From contig JAQBYC010000007.1 of the NCBI GenBank assembly GCA_027623205.1, positions 1 to 64,000 on the forward strand: a stretch of 64,000 bases of DNA. The letters are read 5' to 3'. Positions within the stretch are counted from its first letter, which is position 1. Every line of letters begins with the position of its first letter. The notes under the pieces were generated by a model. That model did no database searches. It was not told where the DNA came from and saw only the letters and a program-made list of their open reading frames with translations. This DNA comes from Pseudomonadota bacterium. GTDB lineage: Bacteria; Pseudomonadota; Alphaproteobacteria; GCA-2731375. Positions 4,642-10,736 of this stretch are shown in pieces. The position numbers and the translations under genes were made by a program.

Positions 4642-6315
4642 TCAAATTGGCTGCGCCGGTTTAGCCCTGTGCCGGGTGGTATAACCGTTGATACGGTCAT
4701 GGTCCCTGGCGGCCTGATCCCGTTCGCCGGGCGGGCCCCAGCCGCCGCCGCCCGCCGAGTGCACCTCGAAGATGGTACCGGCGGGGACGTCGATACCCTC
4801 TTCCTTGGTGCTCAAGACTTTTGGGCGGCGCCCCGGCGCCCGCATCAGATAGCGGTGCGGCGCGCCGTCCTCGCCGCCAAGCAGGCCAGCGGCGCCATGG
4901 CGCGCGCCGTCGCCGGCGGTGTTGGCGCGGCAGGGCGCCTCCGTCTCCACCTCCAATTCCATATCAACCCCGGCGCCGCCGGTAAAGCGGCCGTCGCCGC
5001 CCGAATCCGGACGGTATTCATGGCGTCGAAAATACAGAGGGAAGCGGCTTTCCGCGACTTCGATGGAGCCGAATTTTAATCCTCCCGCGGAATGCCATTC
5101 CCCCGTGCCATGCCAGCCGTCGCCCCCGGAAGAGGCGCCGGCGCCGGGGCGGGCATGGAACATATGCCAGATGAAAGATTTGCCGTTGCGCGGATCTTCG
5201 CCCTTGATGGCAATGCGGAAACGCCGGCCCCAGCCAGCCATGACGCGATCGGGACAGGCCGGGGCAAGGGCCCTGACAATAGCCTCTATAATTTCCTGGG
5301 CGCAGTGACTGGTGGACAAAGTGACGGGCGCGCCGGGATTGGCCCAGACAACACTGCCCTGTCGGGCGATGACCTTGACGGGCCGCAGCGAACCATCGTT
5401 CTTCGGCGTCTCGGGATCGAACAGGAAAGCCAAGGCCATGGCCACGCCAGATTGCATATTGGCGTGGGACGAGTTGATGAAAGAGGTAACCTGGTCATCG
5501 GAGGCGGTCAGATCAATTTCCAGATCGCTGCCCCGCTTGGTAACCTTGGCCCTGACGGCGATATCCTGGTTGCCCCGGCCGTCGTCGTCCAGCAGGGCGA
5601 CGCCCTGATAGGTGCCATCCTTCCAGGTGGCGATGACGTCACGGGCCTGTTTCTCGGCCGAGTCCAGGATTATTTCCACCGCCGCCTGAACCACATCGGC
5701 GCCGAATTCGTCTACAAGTTTCAGAAGCCGTCTCTCGCCCAGGTGAACAGAGCCGATCTGGGCCGCCAGATCACCCTGAAAATCCTGTGGATGGCGAACG
5801 TTCACCGACAGCATCTGCATCAGGTCCCGGCTGACCTTGCCGCCGGTATATAGCCGCAGCGGCGGCACCCGCAGGCCTTCCTGCCAGATTTCCGTAGCCG
5901 AGGCGTTGTAGGCGCCATGGGTAGCGCCGCCGATATCGGAATGGTGCGCCCGATTGACGGTCCAGAACAACAGGTGATCATCAAGGAAGACGGGTACGAA
6001 GGCTGTCAGATCCGGCAAATGACTGCCGCCAAAATAGGGATCGTTCAACAGGAAGACATCGCCGGGGTGGATATCATCGCCAAAAAATTCGACCACCGCC
6101 TTGACCGCCCATGGTAGCGCGCCGACGTGGACTGGAATATGTTCAGCCTGGGCCACAAGGCGGCCACAGTCGCCACAAATGGCGGTGGAAAAATCCCGAC
6201 TGGCGTTCAGAATTTGCGAATACGAGGTTCGCAACATGGCCTCGCCCATTTCCTCCGCGATGGCAACCAGACGGTGGTGAATGACAGAGGCGGTGATCGG
6301 ATCCACTTTATTCAC
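4642..6315 (-). CDS. hyuB: Hydantoinase/oxoprolinase subunit B (HyuB-like)
   Basis: A subunit of about 557 aa partnering HyuA. The N-terminal DPITASVIHHRLVAIAEEMG, the following MLRTSYSQILNASRDFSTAI and the glycine-rich C-terminal segment (EVHSAGGGGWGPP) are typical of hydantoinase B. The frame is open upstream to 6420, but similarity starts at VNKVDPIT, so the GTG at 6315, with GGAG about a dozen bases upstream, is the likely start. It is transcribed before hyuA and diverges from the thiolase gene at 6516; the 200 bp between should hold both promoters, though I see no clear operator. Confidence 0.88.
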   Translation of the reverse strand: MNKVDPITASVIHHRLVAIAEEMGEAMLRTSYSQILNASRDFSTAICGDCGRLVAQAEHIPVHVGALPWAVKAVVEFFGDDIHPGDVFLLNDPYFGGSHLPDLTAFVPVFLDDHLLFWTVNRAHHSDIGGATHGAYNASATEIWQEGLRVPPLRLYTGGKVSRDLMQMLSVNVRHPQDFQGDLAAQIGSVHLGERRLLKLVDEFGADVVQAAVEIILDSAEKQARDVIATWKDGTYQGVALLDDDGRGNQDIAVRAKVTKRGSDLEIDLTASDDQVTSFINSSHANMQSGVAMALAFLFDPETPKNDGSLRPVKVIARQGSVVWANPGAPVTLSTSHCAQEIIEAIVRALAPACPDRVMAGWGRRFRIAIKGEDPRNGKSFIWHMFHARPGAGASSGGDGWHGTGEWHSAGGLKFGSIEVAESRFPLYFRRHEYRPDSGGDGRFTGGAGVDMELEVETEAPCRANTAGDGARHGAAGLLGGEDGAPHRYLMRAPGRRPKVLSTKEEGIDVPAGTIFEVHSAGGGGWGPPGERDQAARDHDRINGYTTRHRAKPAQPI

Positions 6316-6515
6316 TGAATCGGGTACTCCGTTTCCTGCGCCGCTGTTTGGGTGCGGCCCGGCGGGTCGGTGCCTGATACGGCGGGCTGATAGTGTAGGT
6401 TGTCCCACACCGGTGAACAATGGTGATATGCCACTCCGCTTGGCACCTGCCCACGAAGCCCGCTATAGTCGCCTTAGCTGACTTTGGAAATTGATACAAC
6501 AAGGAACCAACCACC

Positions 6516-7703
6516 ATGCGTGATGCTGTCATCGTCTCAACCGCCCGTACGCCGATCGGTAAGGCCTATCGCGGCGCCTTCAACAACACTCATGCGGTCG
6601 ATATGGGTGGCCATGTCATCCGACACGCCGTGGAACGGGCCGGCGTCGATCCGGCCGAAGTTGAAGATGTGATCATGGGCGTTGGCCGGACCGAAGGTTG
6701 CACCGGGGGCAATGTGGCCCGTGGCTCGGCCATGCGGGCGGGTCTGCCGGTCAACGTCTCTGGCCTGACCGTCAGCCGGGCCTGTTCATCGGGCCTGAAT
6801 GCCATCTCCGTCGCCGCCCAGCGGATCATCACCGACGGCGCGCCCGTGGCCGTGGGCGCGGGTCTTGAAAGCATATCCCTGGTGCAGAACGATCATGCCA
6901 ATACCTACTTCCGGGTCAACGGATGGCTGGAAGGTCACCTGCCGTCGATCTATGACCCGATGCTGAAAACCGCGCAGACCGTGGCCGACCGGTATGGCAT
7001 CTCGCGCGATGTGCAGGATGAATACAGTTTCCAAAGCCAGATGCGCACGGCGGCGGCGCAACAGGCCGGCCGGTTTGACGACGAAATCGTACCCATGGCC
7101 ACGATCAAGGCAGTGACCGACAAGGAAAGCGGCGAGGTTACATATGTCGATACCCTGTTGGAACATGACGAAGGCAATCGTCCCTCCACCACCTTGGAAG
7201 GCCTGCAGAGCCTGAAGCCGGTGACCCGGGAAGATGGCCATATCACCGCCGGAAACGCCTCGCAGCTATCGGATGGGGCCTCCGCCTGCGTTCTGATGAG
7301 CGACGCGGAAGCGGCCAAGCGTAACCTGGACGTCATGGGCATCTATCGTGGCCTTGTGGTGCACGGCTGCGAGCCCGATGAGATGGGTATCGGCCCGGTC
7401 TTCGCCATTCCCAAACTGCTGGAACGCAACGGCTTGACGGTAGATGACATCGGCCTGTGGGAATTGAACGAGGCTTTCGCGGTGCAGGTGCTCTATTGCC
7501 GGGATAAATTGGGCATTGATAATGACCTGCTGAATGTGGACGGCGGTTCCATCTCCATCGGCCATCCCTATGGCATGACCGGTGCCCGTCTGACCGGCCA
7601 TGCCCTGATCGAAGGTAAACGCCGGGGCGCGAAATACGTCGTGGTGACCATGTGCGTCGGCACCGGCATGGGCGCCGCCGGCCTGTTCGAAATTCCGCAA
7701 TAG
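6516..7703 (+). CDS. Acetyl-CoA acetyltransferase (thiolase family)
   Basis: A 395-aa thiolase catalysing reversible Claisen condensation or thiolysis of acyl-CoA. The nucleophilic Cys is in [12 protein letters not shown] (near residue 90), the NEAFAVQ block lies near residue 320, the catalytic His is in [13 protein letters not shown], and the second Cys is in [11 protein letters not shown]. Length and motifs are complete. AAGGA lies at the right distance before the ATG. It is monocistronic, with a strong hairpin 26 bp downstream. The family includes beta-ketothiolases for degradation and for polyhydroxyalkanoate synthesis; no phaB-like gene is adjacent, so a degradative role is the simpler inference. 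Confidence 0.93.
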
Positions 7704-7728
7704 CAATCCGGAAAAATCCGGCCACGGC

Positions 7729-7758
7729 GGGCTCTTTGCCAGAAATGGTAAAGAGCCC
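7729..7758 (+). terminator. Hairpin terminator after the thiolase gene
   Basis: GGGCTCTTTGCC and GGTAAAGAGCCC form a near-perfect 11-12 bp stem with a six-base loop, starting 26 bp after the thiolase stop. There is no long T run after it, so it may act bidirectionally between the convergent genes or work as a weak terminator. Confidence 0.55.
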
Positions 7759-7776
7759 ATTGTCGTTTCAGCGTTC

Positions 7777-7875
7777 GAGCAATTTTCAATCTATTGGATT
7801 CGGTTTGGCGATCTGAGTGATTGGTTCAATTGCTCTTTTCTTAAGAGTTCGGGCATGTTTAGAAGAAACATGCTC
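7777..7875 (+). repeat. Dispersed two-hairpin repeat, copy A
   Basis: A 99-bp copy of a repeat family found five times in this window. It begins GAGCAATTTTCAAT, folds into an imperfect long hairpin closing at TTCAATTGCTC, then has a short hairpin GCATGTTT-agaag-AAACATGC and ends in TGCTC. It sits between the convergent 3' ends of the thiolase and selenoprotein genes and touches the stop codon of the latter. Confidence 0.8.
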
Positions 7876-8426
7876 TAGCGGCCGCCCAGCCAGATTTGAC
7901 GCGCCATGGTCACGGCCTGTTCGATGCGCTGGTTGATCTGCTGATCGGTCAGGGTGCTGAGCGGGTGGGTGATGACGACCGGATCCAGATCATTCATACC
8001 CAATGCAGCGCGCTGCACATGGGCCTCGTGCAGGAATTCAGAGGTGACGACAACGGCGGTTGGAACCCCCAGAGTCTCAAGCTGAACACTGTCATGCATA
8101 CAGCACGACGTGCAGCTGCCTCAATCGCCGATGGCGGTCAGAACAATGTCGTTCTCGGCAACGATTTGATCCACCAGTTCCGGCAGGGCGTTCTTTGAAA
8201 AGCTTTCCTTGGCGTATTGGTTTACGGCGGCAAAGTCGTGCTCTGCACAAAGCCGTTCCGTAATGCCGCGCAGCAGCCGGTTGCCGTTCCATTTGGTGTT
8301 GTCCAGGACGCCCAGACGCAAGCCGTCCAGAGAGGTCACGCGGGCGGCGATGGATACTACCTCGGCTTCGACCACGCCGCGTGGGTCATAGACCGGAAGG
8401 CCGGAATTATCGCCGCTTATGTTCAT
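7875..8426 (-). CDS. UGSC-motif selenoprotein (UGA decoded as Sec)
   Basis: Two in-frame pieces (101 and 81 codons) are separated only by a UGA at 8121-8123. Read as selenocysteine, it gives a 183-residue protein with the motif IGD-U-GSCTSCCMHD near residue 102. The coding sense runs on after the UGA (HDSVQLETLGVPTAVVVTSE), so this is not two genes. A UGSC-containing selenoprotein family is known, from memory, from selenoproteome surveys of marine metagenomes; its reaction is unknown, but Sec with nearby Cys residues suggests redox chemistry. No signal peptide is seen, so it is probably cytoplasmic. A tRNA-Sec gene lies upstream in the same apparent transcription unit, which strongly supports recoding over a nonsense mutation. 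The stop is TAG. Confidence 0.88.
8091..8123 (-). promoter_or_regulatory. Sec UGA codon and candidate bacterial SECIS hairpin
   Basis: The UGA is followed at once by sequence that can pair: GCAC/GTGC with a GTC loop (8113-8103), or alternatively CAGC/GCTG (8118-8101) with a ten-base loop. Bacterial SECIS elements are short stem-loops lying within the coding sequence just after the UGA, usually with GU in the apical loop, which is seen here. The loop lies nearer the UGA than in E. coli fdhF, so the exact fold is uncertain. Confidence 0.45.
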
Positions 8427-8476
8427 GCCATCATTCCTTGTTCTGAAAATTTGCGACTATTATATCGCCAACCCGT

Positions 8477-9586
8477 CTAAAGAAAACAGGTGCCGTCGAC
8501 GCAGACCGGGCCGGTGACGGGGGCCTCGCCGTCGATGCCTTGCAGTACCGGACTGCTCATATGGCCCCAACCGGGCAGGAAGGCCGAAAAGCGCCCCGCT
8601 TCGCCGCCTGCCACGAACAGGTGAATGTTATCGGGCGAGGGGACAATGGGGTTCATATCATCCAGTTCGCGGCCGTACCATTTTGGCAGGCTGCGGTTAT
8701 AGACCTTGCCATAACGGTGATCAAACGCGATGTCGCCAAACCGGACCTGGGCATTGTGCCACAAATATTGCCGGATATCGTGGCGGCTCCAGCTCTGGCC
8801 GGCGATGGTCAGGGCGTGCTCCAGGCCCAGAACCACCGTGCAATGACCCGACGAAACGGCATTGTTGTGGGCATAGGTGGACATGGCCGAGACGATGGAA
8901 TCCAGAATGCCGCGGGCATCGTTGGCCTGGTGATTGGTGACGCTATGGGGCGCCTCCGCCGCGATGACGAAGACGGTGGAGTCGGCGGCATCAAAGCCCT
9001 TCTCAACATGATAGGGGGCCAGGGGGCTTTGCGCTTCGTTCTCGGCGATGCAGAAGCTGTATTTGCCGGGATGGCCCAGGGTGCTTTTGTCCAATTCGCC
9101 AGGCCAGGCACCGCCCACGTTCAGCAAAATCATCCGCACGGCGCGCCCGATCGTGGCATTGGCCCGGTTGCCGGAGCCGAATACATTGCAGCCAGCATTC
9201 ATGCCGATCCGTTCCGCCATGGGCCCGTTTACCACTAACAGGGGACAGGCCATATGGGTGGTCGCCTGCACGCCATTCAGATTGAAGGCGGTATTGGTCA
9301 GCGCCAGCATGGCCGCCCGTACCACGGGGGCATATTCCGGTTTGCAGCCCGCCATGACCATATTGATGGCCAGAACTTTGCGGCTGAGACTGCCCCAGCG
9401 CGGCGGCACTTTGCATTCCACCCGCTCTGGATCGCCGCCCAGGGCGCGCAGCATGGCGGCCAGTTTTTCGGGGGTTGGCGGCACCACGGGAAAGCCGTCG
9501 GAGAAACCCTGTTCGAAATACCATTCCACCAGGTCGGTATCGCCCGCCAGACGATCCATGCTCAGATTGCTCACCGCCTCATTCAT
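8477..9586 (-). CDS. Conserved protein of unknown function, partner of the UGSC selenoprotein
   Basis: A protein of 369 aa whose function I do not recognise. Visible blocks are GFSDGFPVVPPTPEKLAAML near residue 30, NLNGVQATTHMACPLLVVNG near 100, GSGNRANATIGRAVRMILLN near 138, a FCIAENEAQSPLAPYHVEKG segment near 175, and a C-terminal tail PVCVDGTCFL with two cysteines four residues apart. No membrane segment or signal peptide is evident. I recall similar proteins encoded beside UGSC proteins elsewhere but cannot verify that here. AGGAGAT precedes the ATG. It lies 30 bp after selC and 50 bp before the selenoprotein gene on the same strand, so the three look cotranscribed. Confidence 0.75.
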   Translation of the reverse strand: MNEAVSNLSMDRLAGDTDLVEWYFEQGFSDGFPVVPPTPEKLAAMLRALGGDPERVECKVPPRWGSLSRKVLAINMVMAGCKPEYAPVVRAAMLALTNTAFNLNGVQATTHMACPLLVVNGPMAERIGMNAGCNVFGSGNRANATIGRAVRMILLNVGGAWPGELDKSTLGHPGKYSFCIAENEAQSPLAPYHVEKGFDAADSTVFVIAAEAPHSVTNHQANDARGILDSIVSAMSTYAHNNAVSSGHCTVVLGLEHALTIAGQSWSRHDIRQYLWHNAQVRFGDIAFDHRYGKVYNRSLPKWYGRELDDMNPIVPSPDNIHLFVAGGEAGRFSAFLPGWGHMSSPVLQGIDGEAPVTGPVCVDGTCFL

Positions 9587-9615
9587 GGATATCTCCTAGC
9601 CATAGCGACGGAAAT

Positions 9616-9711
9616 TGGCGGAAGAGAGTGGGAGTCGAACCCACCAGGCACGTCTAACGCCCCTCAACGGGTTTGAAGCCCGCGCGCAACACCGGAATGC
9701 GTTCCCCTTCC
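9616..9711 (-). tRNA. selC: tRNA-Sec (anticodon UCA)
   Basis: A 96-nt tRNA with CCA encoded. The anticodon arm is GCGGG-CTTCAAA-CCCGT, a loop identical to that of E. coli selC, with anticodon TCA reading UGA. The acceptor stem is 8 bp (GGAAGGGG with CTCTCTTCC, using G-U pairs), the D loop contains TCCGGTG as in E. coli selC, there is a long variable arm of about 7-8 bp, and the T arm is GTGGG-TTCGACT-CCCAC. The 8-bp acceptor, long variable arm and extended D arm separate it from suppressor or Trp tRNAs. It carries Ser converted to Sec by SelA; selA, selB and selD are not in this window. Confidence 0.95.
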
Positions 9712-9718
9712 ACCGACC

Positions 9719-9748
9719 AATCTAGGGCTTGATGCGGGGGCTAATCAA
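9719..9748 (-). promoter_or_regulatory. Candidate sigma-70 promoter for selC
   Basis: On the minus strand TTGATT (9748-9743) and TAGATT (9724-9719) are separated by 18 bp, and the mature tRNA 5' end is seven bases further on. Spacing and position fit a promoter reading selC and then the two downstream genes. The region is shared with the divergent alpha/beta hydrolase gene. Confidence 0.4.
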
Positions 9749-9803
9749 GGGCTGTCTGAAAATGTGCTATGACGGGCGGAAAATCTTGATCAATAAGAGC
9801 GTT

Positions 9804-10736
9804 ATGATGACAGACGAAGAACAAAGATTGACGGTAAGGGCACCGGCGCCCGACTGGTTTCATTGGGCCGTTGGCCAGCGGGGCAAGTCGGCCCAGGTTA
9901 CCGTGGACGGCTGTTCCATCCACTACCTGCTTTGGCAGCCCGACGGAAGCGTAACCGACCCCGGCGGCATTTTGTTCGTACATGGCGGCGGCGCACATGC
10001 CCATTGGTGGAGCCATATCGCGCCATTTTTCCGGGCCGGTTTCCGGGTCGCGGCGATCGACCTATCCGGCATGGGGGACAGCGGCAACCGCCCCAAGGAC
10101 GTCTACAATGCGACTTTGCGGGCCGAGGAAATTCGGGCGGTGATCGCTGATGCCGGGTTGGGCGCGAAAACCTTTCTGGTGGGACACAGCTTTGGCGGCT
10201 TCATGTCCATGCGTTATGCCTCCATGTATGGCGATAATTTAGGTGGTTTGGTGATCGCTGATTCGCCTCTTTATCCGCCCGGTCAGGAGGATGATCGCCG
10301 TCGCCGGACCAAACCAATGGGCAATATCCGTCTGTACCCGAGTTTTGAGGAGGCGGTAGCCCGTTTTCGCCTGCGCCCGCGGCAACCCTGCGACAACGAC
10401 TTCATCGTCGAATTTATCGCCCGTCATTCCGTGAAGGCGGTGGACGGCGGCTGGACCTGGAAATTCGACACCAATGCCATGTCCGGGCGGCGCTTCGCCG
10501 AGCCCTTTCACGAACATTTACAGGCGGCAAACTGCCGTTGCGCCCTGTTTTATGCGGCGCACAGCGCCCTCGTGACGGCGGAAATGGCGCGTTATATGAA
10601 TAGCCTAATGGGACCGAAAGCGCCCATGGTGGTAATCCCGGCCGCTCAACATCATCTGACATTGGATCAACCGCTGGCCTTCGTAGCCGCCCTGCGGACC
10701 TTGTTGGACGCCTGGCAGCGGGCAGATGTACACTAG
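9804..10736 (+). CDS. Alpha/beta-fold hydrolase
   Basis: A hydrolase of about 310 aa. The oxyanion region is LFVHGGGAHAHWWSHIAPFF, the nucleophile elbow is GHSFGG (Ser near residue 135), and a C-terminal His lies in PAAQHHLTLDQP. The substrate is unknown; the fold covers esterases, epoxide and C-C hydrolases. An AAGAG site precedes ATG codons at 9804 and 9807, preferred over an in-frame start at 9729 lying close to the selC promoter region. It diverges from selC and ends about 110 bp before a strong intrinsic terminator, so it appears monocistronic. Confidence 0.85.
   Translation: MMTDEEQRLTVRAPAPDWFHWAVGQRGKSAQVTVDGCSIHYLLWQPDGSVTDPGGILFVHGGGAHAHWWSHIAPFFRAGFRVAAIDLSGMGDSGNRPKDVYNATLRAEEIRAVIADAGLGAKTFLVGHSFGGFMSMRYASMYGDNLGGLVIADSPLYPPGQEDDRRRRTKPMGNIRLYPSFEEAVARFRLRPRQPCDNDFIVEFIARHSVKAVDGGWTWKFDTNAMSGRRFAEPFHEHLQAANCRCALFYAAHSALVTAEMARYMNSLMGPKAPMVVIPAAQHHLTLDQPLAFVAALRTLLDAWQRADVH

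Follow-up and report, generated by a model that had tools for sequence, protein, structure and literature searches.

A UGSC-family selenoprotein and its constant partner encoded behind selC in an alphaproteobacterium: a pair that looks like a two-part selenium reductase

In the Global Ocean Sampling data, UGSC proteins belong to the most abundant selenoproteins, and rank first in frequency among those of its nonmarine samples (PMC2398784); a review from 2026 still gives no function for them (PMC13188914). Zhang and Gladyshev (2008) considered UGSC likely thioredoxin (Trx)-like, and reported a UGSC/‘Unknown_1’ fusion (PMC2398784). The window gene described here resembles the UGSC family (PF24696, NF041046) in being full-length with Sec at the UGSC motif, but differs from the description in PMC2398784 in its constant partner family, Rossmann-like predicted fold, and linkage to selC. 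Alphaproteobacteria have selABC clusters, and selC genes nested in selB (Mukai 2021, PMC8124441). As in those arrangements, an ORF lies closely 3' of the window selC and a common transcript is likely; however, this selC lies outside selB, and genes for a 369 aa protein (p369) and a UGSC protein come next. The window, the whole stretch of 64,000 nucleotides analysed, holds the following features of this locus:

9719-9748, minus strand: sigma-70-like candidate selC promoter, TTGATT - 18 nt - TAGATT (sequence and congeners)
9616-9711, minus strand: selC, tRNA-Sec with anticodon UCA (TCA in DNA) (ARAGORN and Rfam RF01852)
8477-9586, minus strand: p369, the partner protein, 369 aa (ORF; no Pfam or NCBIfam model)
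7875-8426, minus strand: UGSC-family selenoprotein, 183 aa, Sec102 (ORF, PF24696, NF041046, AlphaFold pLDDT 93)
8121-8123, minus strand: in-frame UGA, the Sec codon, codon 102 (ORF; paralogs)
8091-8109, minus strand: SECIS-like hairpin GUCGUGC-UGUAU-GCAUGAC, 11 nt after the UGA (fold, covariation)
7729-7758, no strand assigned: hairpin between the UGSC gene and a convergent thiolase gene (congener comparison)

The tRNA-Sec identity given to selC in the original prediction is confirmed by ARAGORN and by a score of 68.2 bits against Rfam RF01852 (gathering score 47), with the remaining matches in the source genome at 49.1 bits or below, leaving selC as its sole high-scoring tRNA-Sec. On the minus strand selC is followed after 29 nt, rather than the 30 bp predicted, by the start codon of p369, an ATG with GGAG close 5' of it, whilst the predicted 50 bp between the p369 stop and the start of the UGSC gene was borne out. 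The source genome encodes the full Sec machinery of selA, selB, selC, and selD, with two selD genes above the cut-off (C63:21997-22926, L219; C163:12743-13660, L220), one carrying an in-frame TGA and one lying within a 794-aa open frame. SelA and SelB are encoded adjacently on contig C213, i.e. not on the contig of selC; the earlier remark that selC is more often found near selAB fits the genomes sampled here. A MITE-like 104-bp repeat (window 7777-7880), present in at least 40 copies in the source genome at 88–94% identity, abuts the UGSC stop.

A scan of 7600-9900 for consensus promoters found none, the TTGATT/TAGATT promoter of selC being too weak to be listed. The -10 box of this candidate ends 7 nt 5' of the tRNA, and a TAGATT-like box is present at the same position upstream of selC in congeners. 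In congeners without the pair (G001, G003, G005, and G010), selC is followed by a GC-rich hairpin that precedes the convergent thiolase gene. The counterpart of this hairpin lies beyond UGSC in the window, and p369 and UGSC thus separate the tRNA from the hairpin that formerly came after it. A U-run on the selC strand is not clear in the window hairpin (7729-7758). The positions of the promoter and hairpin favour one transcript carrying selC, p369, and UGSC, and the apparent operon originally proposed is likely to be a single unit. A literature search on selC cotranscription found no report.

The UGSC frame is open through a single TGA, in the motif GDUGSCTSCC, to a TAG, and its product matches PF24696 (E=1.7e-55, 188.2 bits, cut-off 25) and NF041046 (155.8 bits, cut-off 125). 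The gene is a full-length member of the UGSC family with Sec in the UGSC motif, in agreement with its first identification as a selenoprotein gene with an in-frame UGA. Both features that serve as criteria for a bacterial selenoprotein gene, an in-frame UGA and a SECIS hairpin after it, are present. The SECIS-like hairpin carries GU in its apical loop, and the UGA together with the following 53 nt folds with an energy of -21.2 kcal/mol. Across 28 relatives, 84.7% of the cells of the stem are paired and 16 cells have changed on both sides, with slid partners pairing at most 54.1% in the control. Tests on the window sequence by itself were not significant, with 21 of 200 shuffles and 247 of 2000 synonymous recodings as good as the window hairpin, and the case for the hairpin therefore rests on its covariation.

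Comparison of p369 with Pfam and NCBIfam found no family model, the sole Pfam match up to E 0.1 being FemAB_like (E 0.092). PDB sequence searches with the p369 and UGSC profiles found no match, as did a search of E. coli genomes, and p369 is a ‘hypothetical protein’ in annotated plasmid records. Searching GTDB genomes for p369 homologs yielded at least 589 relatives, and the locus counts given here come from the best 80 loci. UGSC lies within 3 kb of p369 at 70 of these best 80 loci, with either gene order occurring and a median gap of 121 nt between the profile matches. Fusions exist as both UGSC-p369 and p369-UGSC, some containing the Sec TGA as their sole internal stop, and the other seven UGSC genes of the source genome each adjoin, or are in frame with, a p369 homolog. 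Furthermore, the distance matrices of p369 and UGSC correlate, with a rho of 0.54 compared with a shuffled maximum of 0.18. The neighbour initially described as an uncharacterised partner is the constant partner family of UGSC. Residues Asp30, Asn75, Cys81, Asn143, and Arg148 are invariant in 54 p369 homologs, and p369 also contains a GxGxRANATIGRA block.

As the only stop within the UGSC frame, the UGA could be taken for a true stop, with the second half of the gene as remnant sequence; the chance of this is negligible, however, given that the family match runs full length through the TGA, and that exactly one in-frame TGA is found in each of the eight UGSC genes of the source genome and in 115 of 116 UGSC matches from relatives (116 genomes), the sole exception being a 32-residue fragment located where its contig ends. 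Additionally, of the UGSC matches beside p369 homologs elsewhere, 11 lack a TGA and most of these have a Cys codon in the motif; Parapusillimonas, which can be cultured, carries a Cys form of the pair. The source genome also holds selA, selB, selC, and selD. A reading of the UGSC product as an ordinary thioredoxin-fold thiol-disulfide protein beside an unrelated neighbour agrees with the 2008 call (PMC2398784) and with the UxxC motif. It is, however, very unlikely, with the AlphaFold model (pLDDT 93) predicting alternating strands and helices in a Rossmann-like fold, with Sec at a helix start, rather than a Trx-like topology, and with the weak PDB matches to this model being flavodoxin-like and other Rossmann-type proteins, thioredoxin being absent among the matches listed. 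The constancy of p369 and the existence of fusions also argue against an unrelated neighbour. Foldseek searches with the UGSC model and with a model of a UGSC-p369 fusion (pLDDT 89) found nothing at E≤0.001, and the matches listed for the fusion, to small Rossmann-type proteins, cover stretches of only about the size of UGSC, so that the p369 part appears unmatched.

Alignment of UGSC with alphaproteobacterial PrdB-like profiles in hhalign gives a probability of 92.9 (E 3.7e-7) and places Sec over Sec, suggesting that the Sec region of UGSC is remotely homologous to the GrdB/PrdB family. UGSC and PrdB/GrdB (TIGR04483, PF07355) are alike in this Sec-region profile match, in a Sec-x-x-Cys redox motif, and in the presence of Trx reductase near some loci. 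In contrast, UGSC is shorter and falls far below the curated cut-offs (12.6 bits against TIGR01917, cut-off 602.2), and a GrdE/PrdA partner was not found. Comparison of p369 with PrdB-like proteins gives no sign of a relationship (hhalign probability 3), and a Pfam profile search up to E 0.1 found no GrdE/PrdA homology in p369; the analogy between the subunits is therefore functional only.

Type III CoA-transferase genes lie near the orthologs at L103, L106, L111, L113, and L119, with LysR genes and TctC or TRAP uptake genes near several orthologs, and the commonest neighbours overall are CoA-transferase, TctC, acyl-CoA dehydrogenase, SDR, and LysR genes (8–12 of the best 80 loci), for which no enrichment is claimed since the control loci were selC regions. 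The trxB gene lies near the pair in Roseovarius THAF8, Variovorax SRS16, and Candidimonas; trxB and AcnX are each present at 1 of the best 80 p369 loci, and at this frequency of trxB the electron donor is weakly supported. By analogy with glycine/proline reductase (PMC13188914 and general knowledge), these neighbours would suit a catabolic reductase fed by thioredoxin, with the enzyme mechanism being the least certain step of the account. An AcnX (aconitase X) gene is found near long p369-containing ORFs on plasmids of Vibrio europaeus and Sporomusa termitida (L215, L216).

The linkage of selC to the pair, as a neighbourhood check of the original prediction established, recurs in relatives. 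In G014, a second genus of the same family, selA-selB-selC-p369-UGSC occur in a row (p369 79%, UGSC 63%), and in L101, a Minwuiaceae MAG, selA-selB are followed after a 2.4 kb gap by selC-p369-UGSC (p369 82%); a literature search on Minwuia selenocysteine found nothing. In the p369 tree both cluster with the copy from the window, at a support of 89/90 that falls short of the starred level. Further selC-p369-UGSC orders are found in G352 (0.67 kb), and in G104 and G136 (about 2.6–2.7 kb), whilst at L119 the pair is divergent from selABC. Among 385 genomes of the class, tRNA-Sec is present in 55, UGSC in 38, and both in 34, with UGSC tracking tRNA-Sec (34/38 vs 21/347 genomes, Fisher P 8e-30 with kinship ignored). 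UGSC and tRNA-Sec lie at most 5 kb apart in 5 of the 34 genomes with both, where a rough density estimate gives ~0.2 expected.

Within the genus, a selC match above 65 bits is present in nine of ten congeners (G002 being without), with the same alpha/beta hydrolase gene beside selC in all nine and the thiolase on the opposite flank in eight; on the G006 stretch analysed the thiolase was not found. None of the ten congeners has an ortholog of the window p369 (best identity 42%), despite 7–10 p369 matches in each. In G007, G008, and G009 the space between selC and the thiolase is occupied by one gene, different in each (L066 6724-8517; L067 6794-8401; L068 6786-8438). By eye these genes are cyclase-, sensor kinase-, and monooxygenase-like, and the interval has the appearance of a variable cargo site.

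The original prediction proposed that placing the tRNA ahead of a selenoprotein gene would couple Sec supply to demand, Sec-tRNA rising as it is needed. The likely single transcript, the short gap between selC and p369, and the same order in G000, G014, and L101 would agree with such regulation. A tRNA is reused many times, however, so that making one with each mRNA would not match supply to demand; together with the congeners that retain selC at this site without the pair, and with the seven further UGSC-p369 units of the source genome that have no tRNA nearby, this leaves the coupling unsupported, and we consider it unlikely. Given the selAB-selC-p369-UGSC order in relatives, the linkage is more readily understood as that of a selenium gene cluster whose enzyme genes have stayed beside selC. 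The block may have moved, with subsequent loss of the pair from congeners, or else the pair may have been regained at selC. A gain by insertion, with the pair arriving behind selC within this lineage, for instance through homologous recombination at selC involving a relative that has selC-p369-UGSC, would account for the other single genes at that site in three congeners, for the confinement of the ortholog to this genome among its congeners, and for the repeat of at least 40 genomic copies abutting the UGSC stop. Against this, the window selC is of the genus type, unlike the selC of G014 or L101, and the window p369 groups with family members, which together make plain transfer of the whole block unlikely. 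Insertion is a possibility to which we give rather less than even weight; it concerns the origin of the unit, and is compatible with the enzyme proposed below.

The explanation we prefer, and which as a whole we hold to be somewhat probable, combines one selC-p369-UGSC transcription unit, derived from an older selenium cluster, with a two-part PrdB-like Sec enzyme. RNA polymerase would start at the selC promoter, read through p369 and UGSC, and stop at the hairpin that precedes the convergent thiolase gene, with processing freeing the tRNA and leaving a two-gene mRNA. The unit would derive from a selAB-selC-p369-UGSC cluster and now lie at another chromosomal site, and would not act as a regulator of Sec supply. 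p369 and UGSC would form one two-part enzyme, with the Rossmann-like UGSC subunit presenting a Sec-Gly-Ser-Cys redox centre at a helix start, like the Sec region of GrdB/PrdB, and p369, with its invariant Cys81 and GxGxRANATIGRA block, as the candidate subunit for substrate binding or activation. The selenolate may reductively cleave a bond in an organic acid or amide substrate, with thioredoxin and Trx reductase re-reducing the resulting Se-S bridge. More tentatively, and short of an even chance, the pair may represent a new class of two-part Sec-dependent reductase, having a PrdB/GrdB-like Sec subunit, a partner fold absent from the PDB, several parallel copies in each genome acting on different substrates, and, for this lineage, a tRNA-Sec promoter giving rise to a tRNA-mRNA transcript.

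The pair is the stronger finding compared with the placement of selC, and it has the look of a new selenium reductase in two parts, with the glycine/proline reductases as distant relatives. The partner family, a predicted fold unlike the accepted guess, and the link to PrdB make UGSC testable as a two-part reductase, with eight Sec-dependent copies in one genome raising the question of their substrates. The selC-headed unit would also offer a clean case for studying the processing of a single transcript into a tRNA and an mRNA.

The source genome additionally contains two PrdB-like genes (L209 5882-6616 and 12061-12753, on C113), matching the PrdB model below its cut-off, the gene at 5882-6616 having a UPVC Sec motif and adjoining a CoA-transferase-like gene. 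In the 385-genome class sample, a gene of the GrdB/PrdB family (PF07355) lies at most 5 kb from selC in 13 genomes (G067, G115, G013, G048, G208, G220, G273, G309, G317, G352, G386, G206, and G298), with L201, L204, L205, and L206 as example loci.
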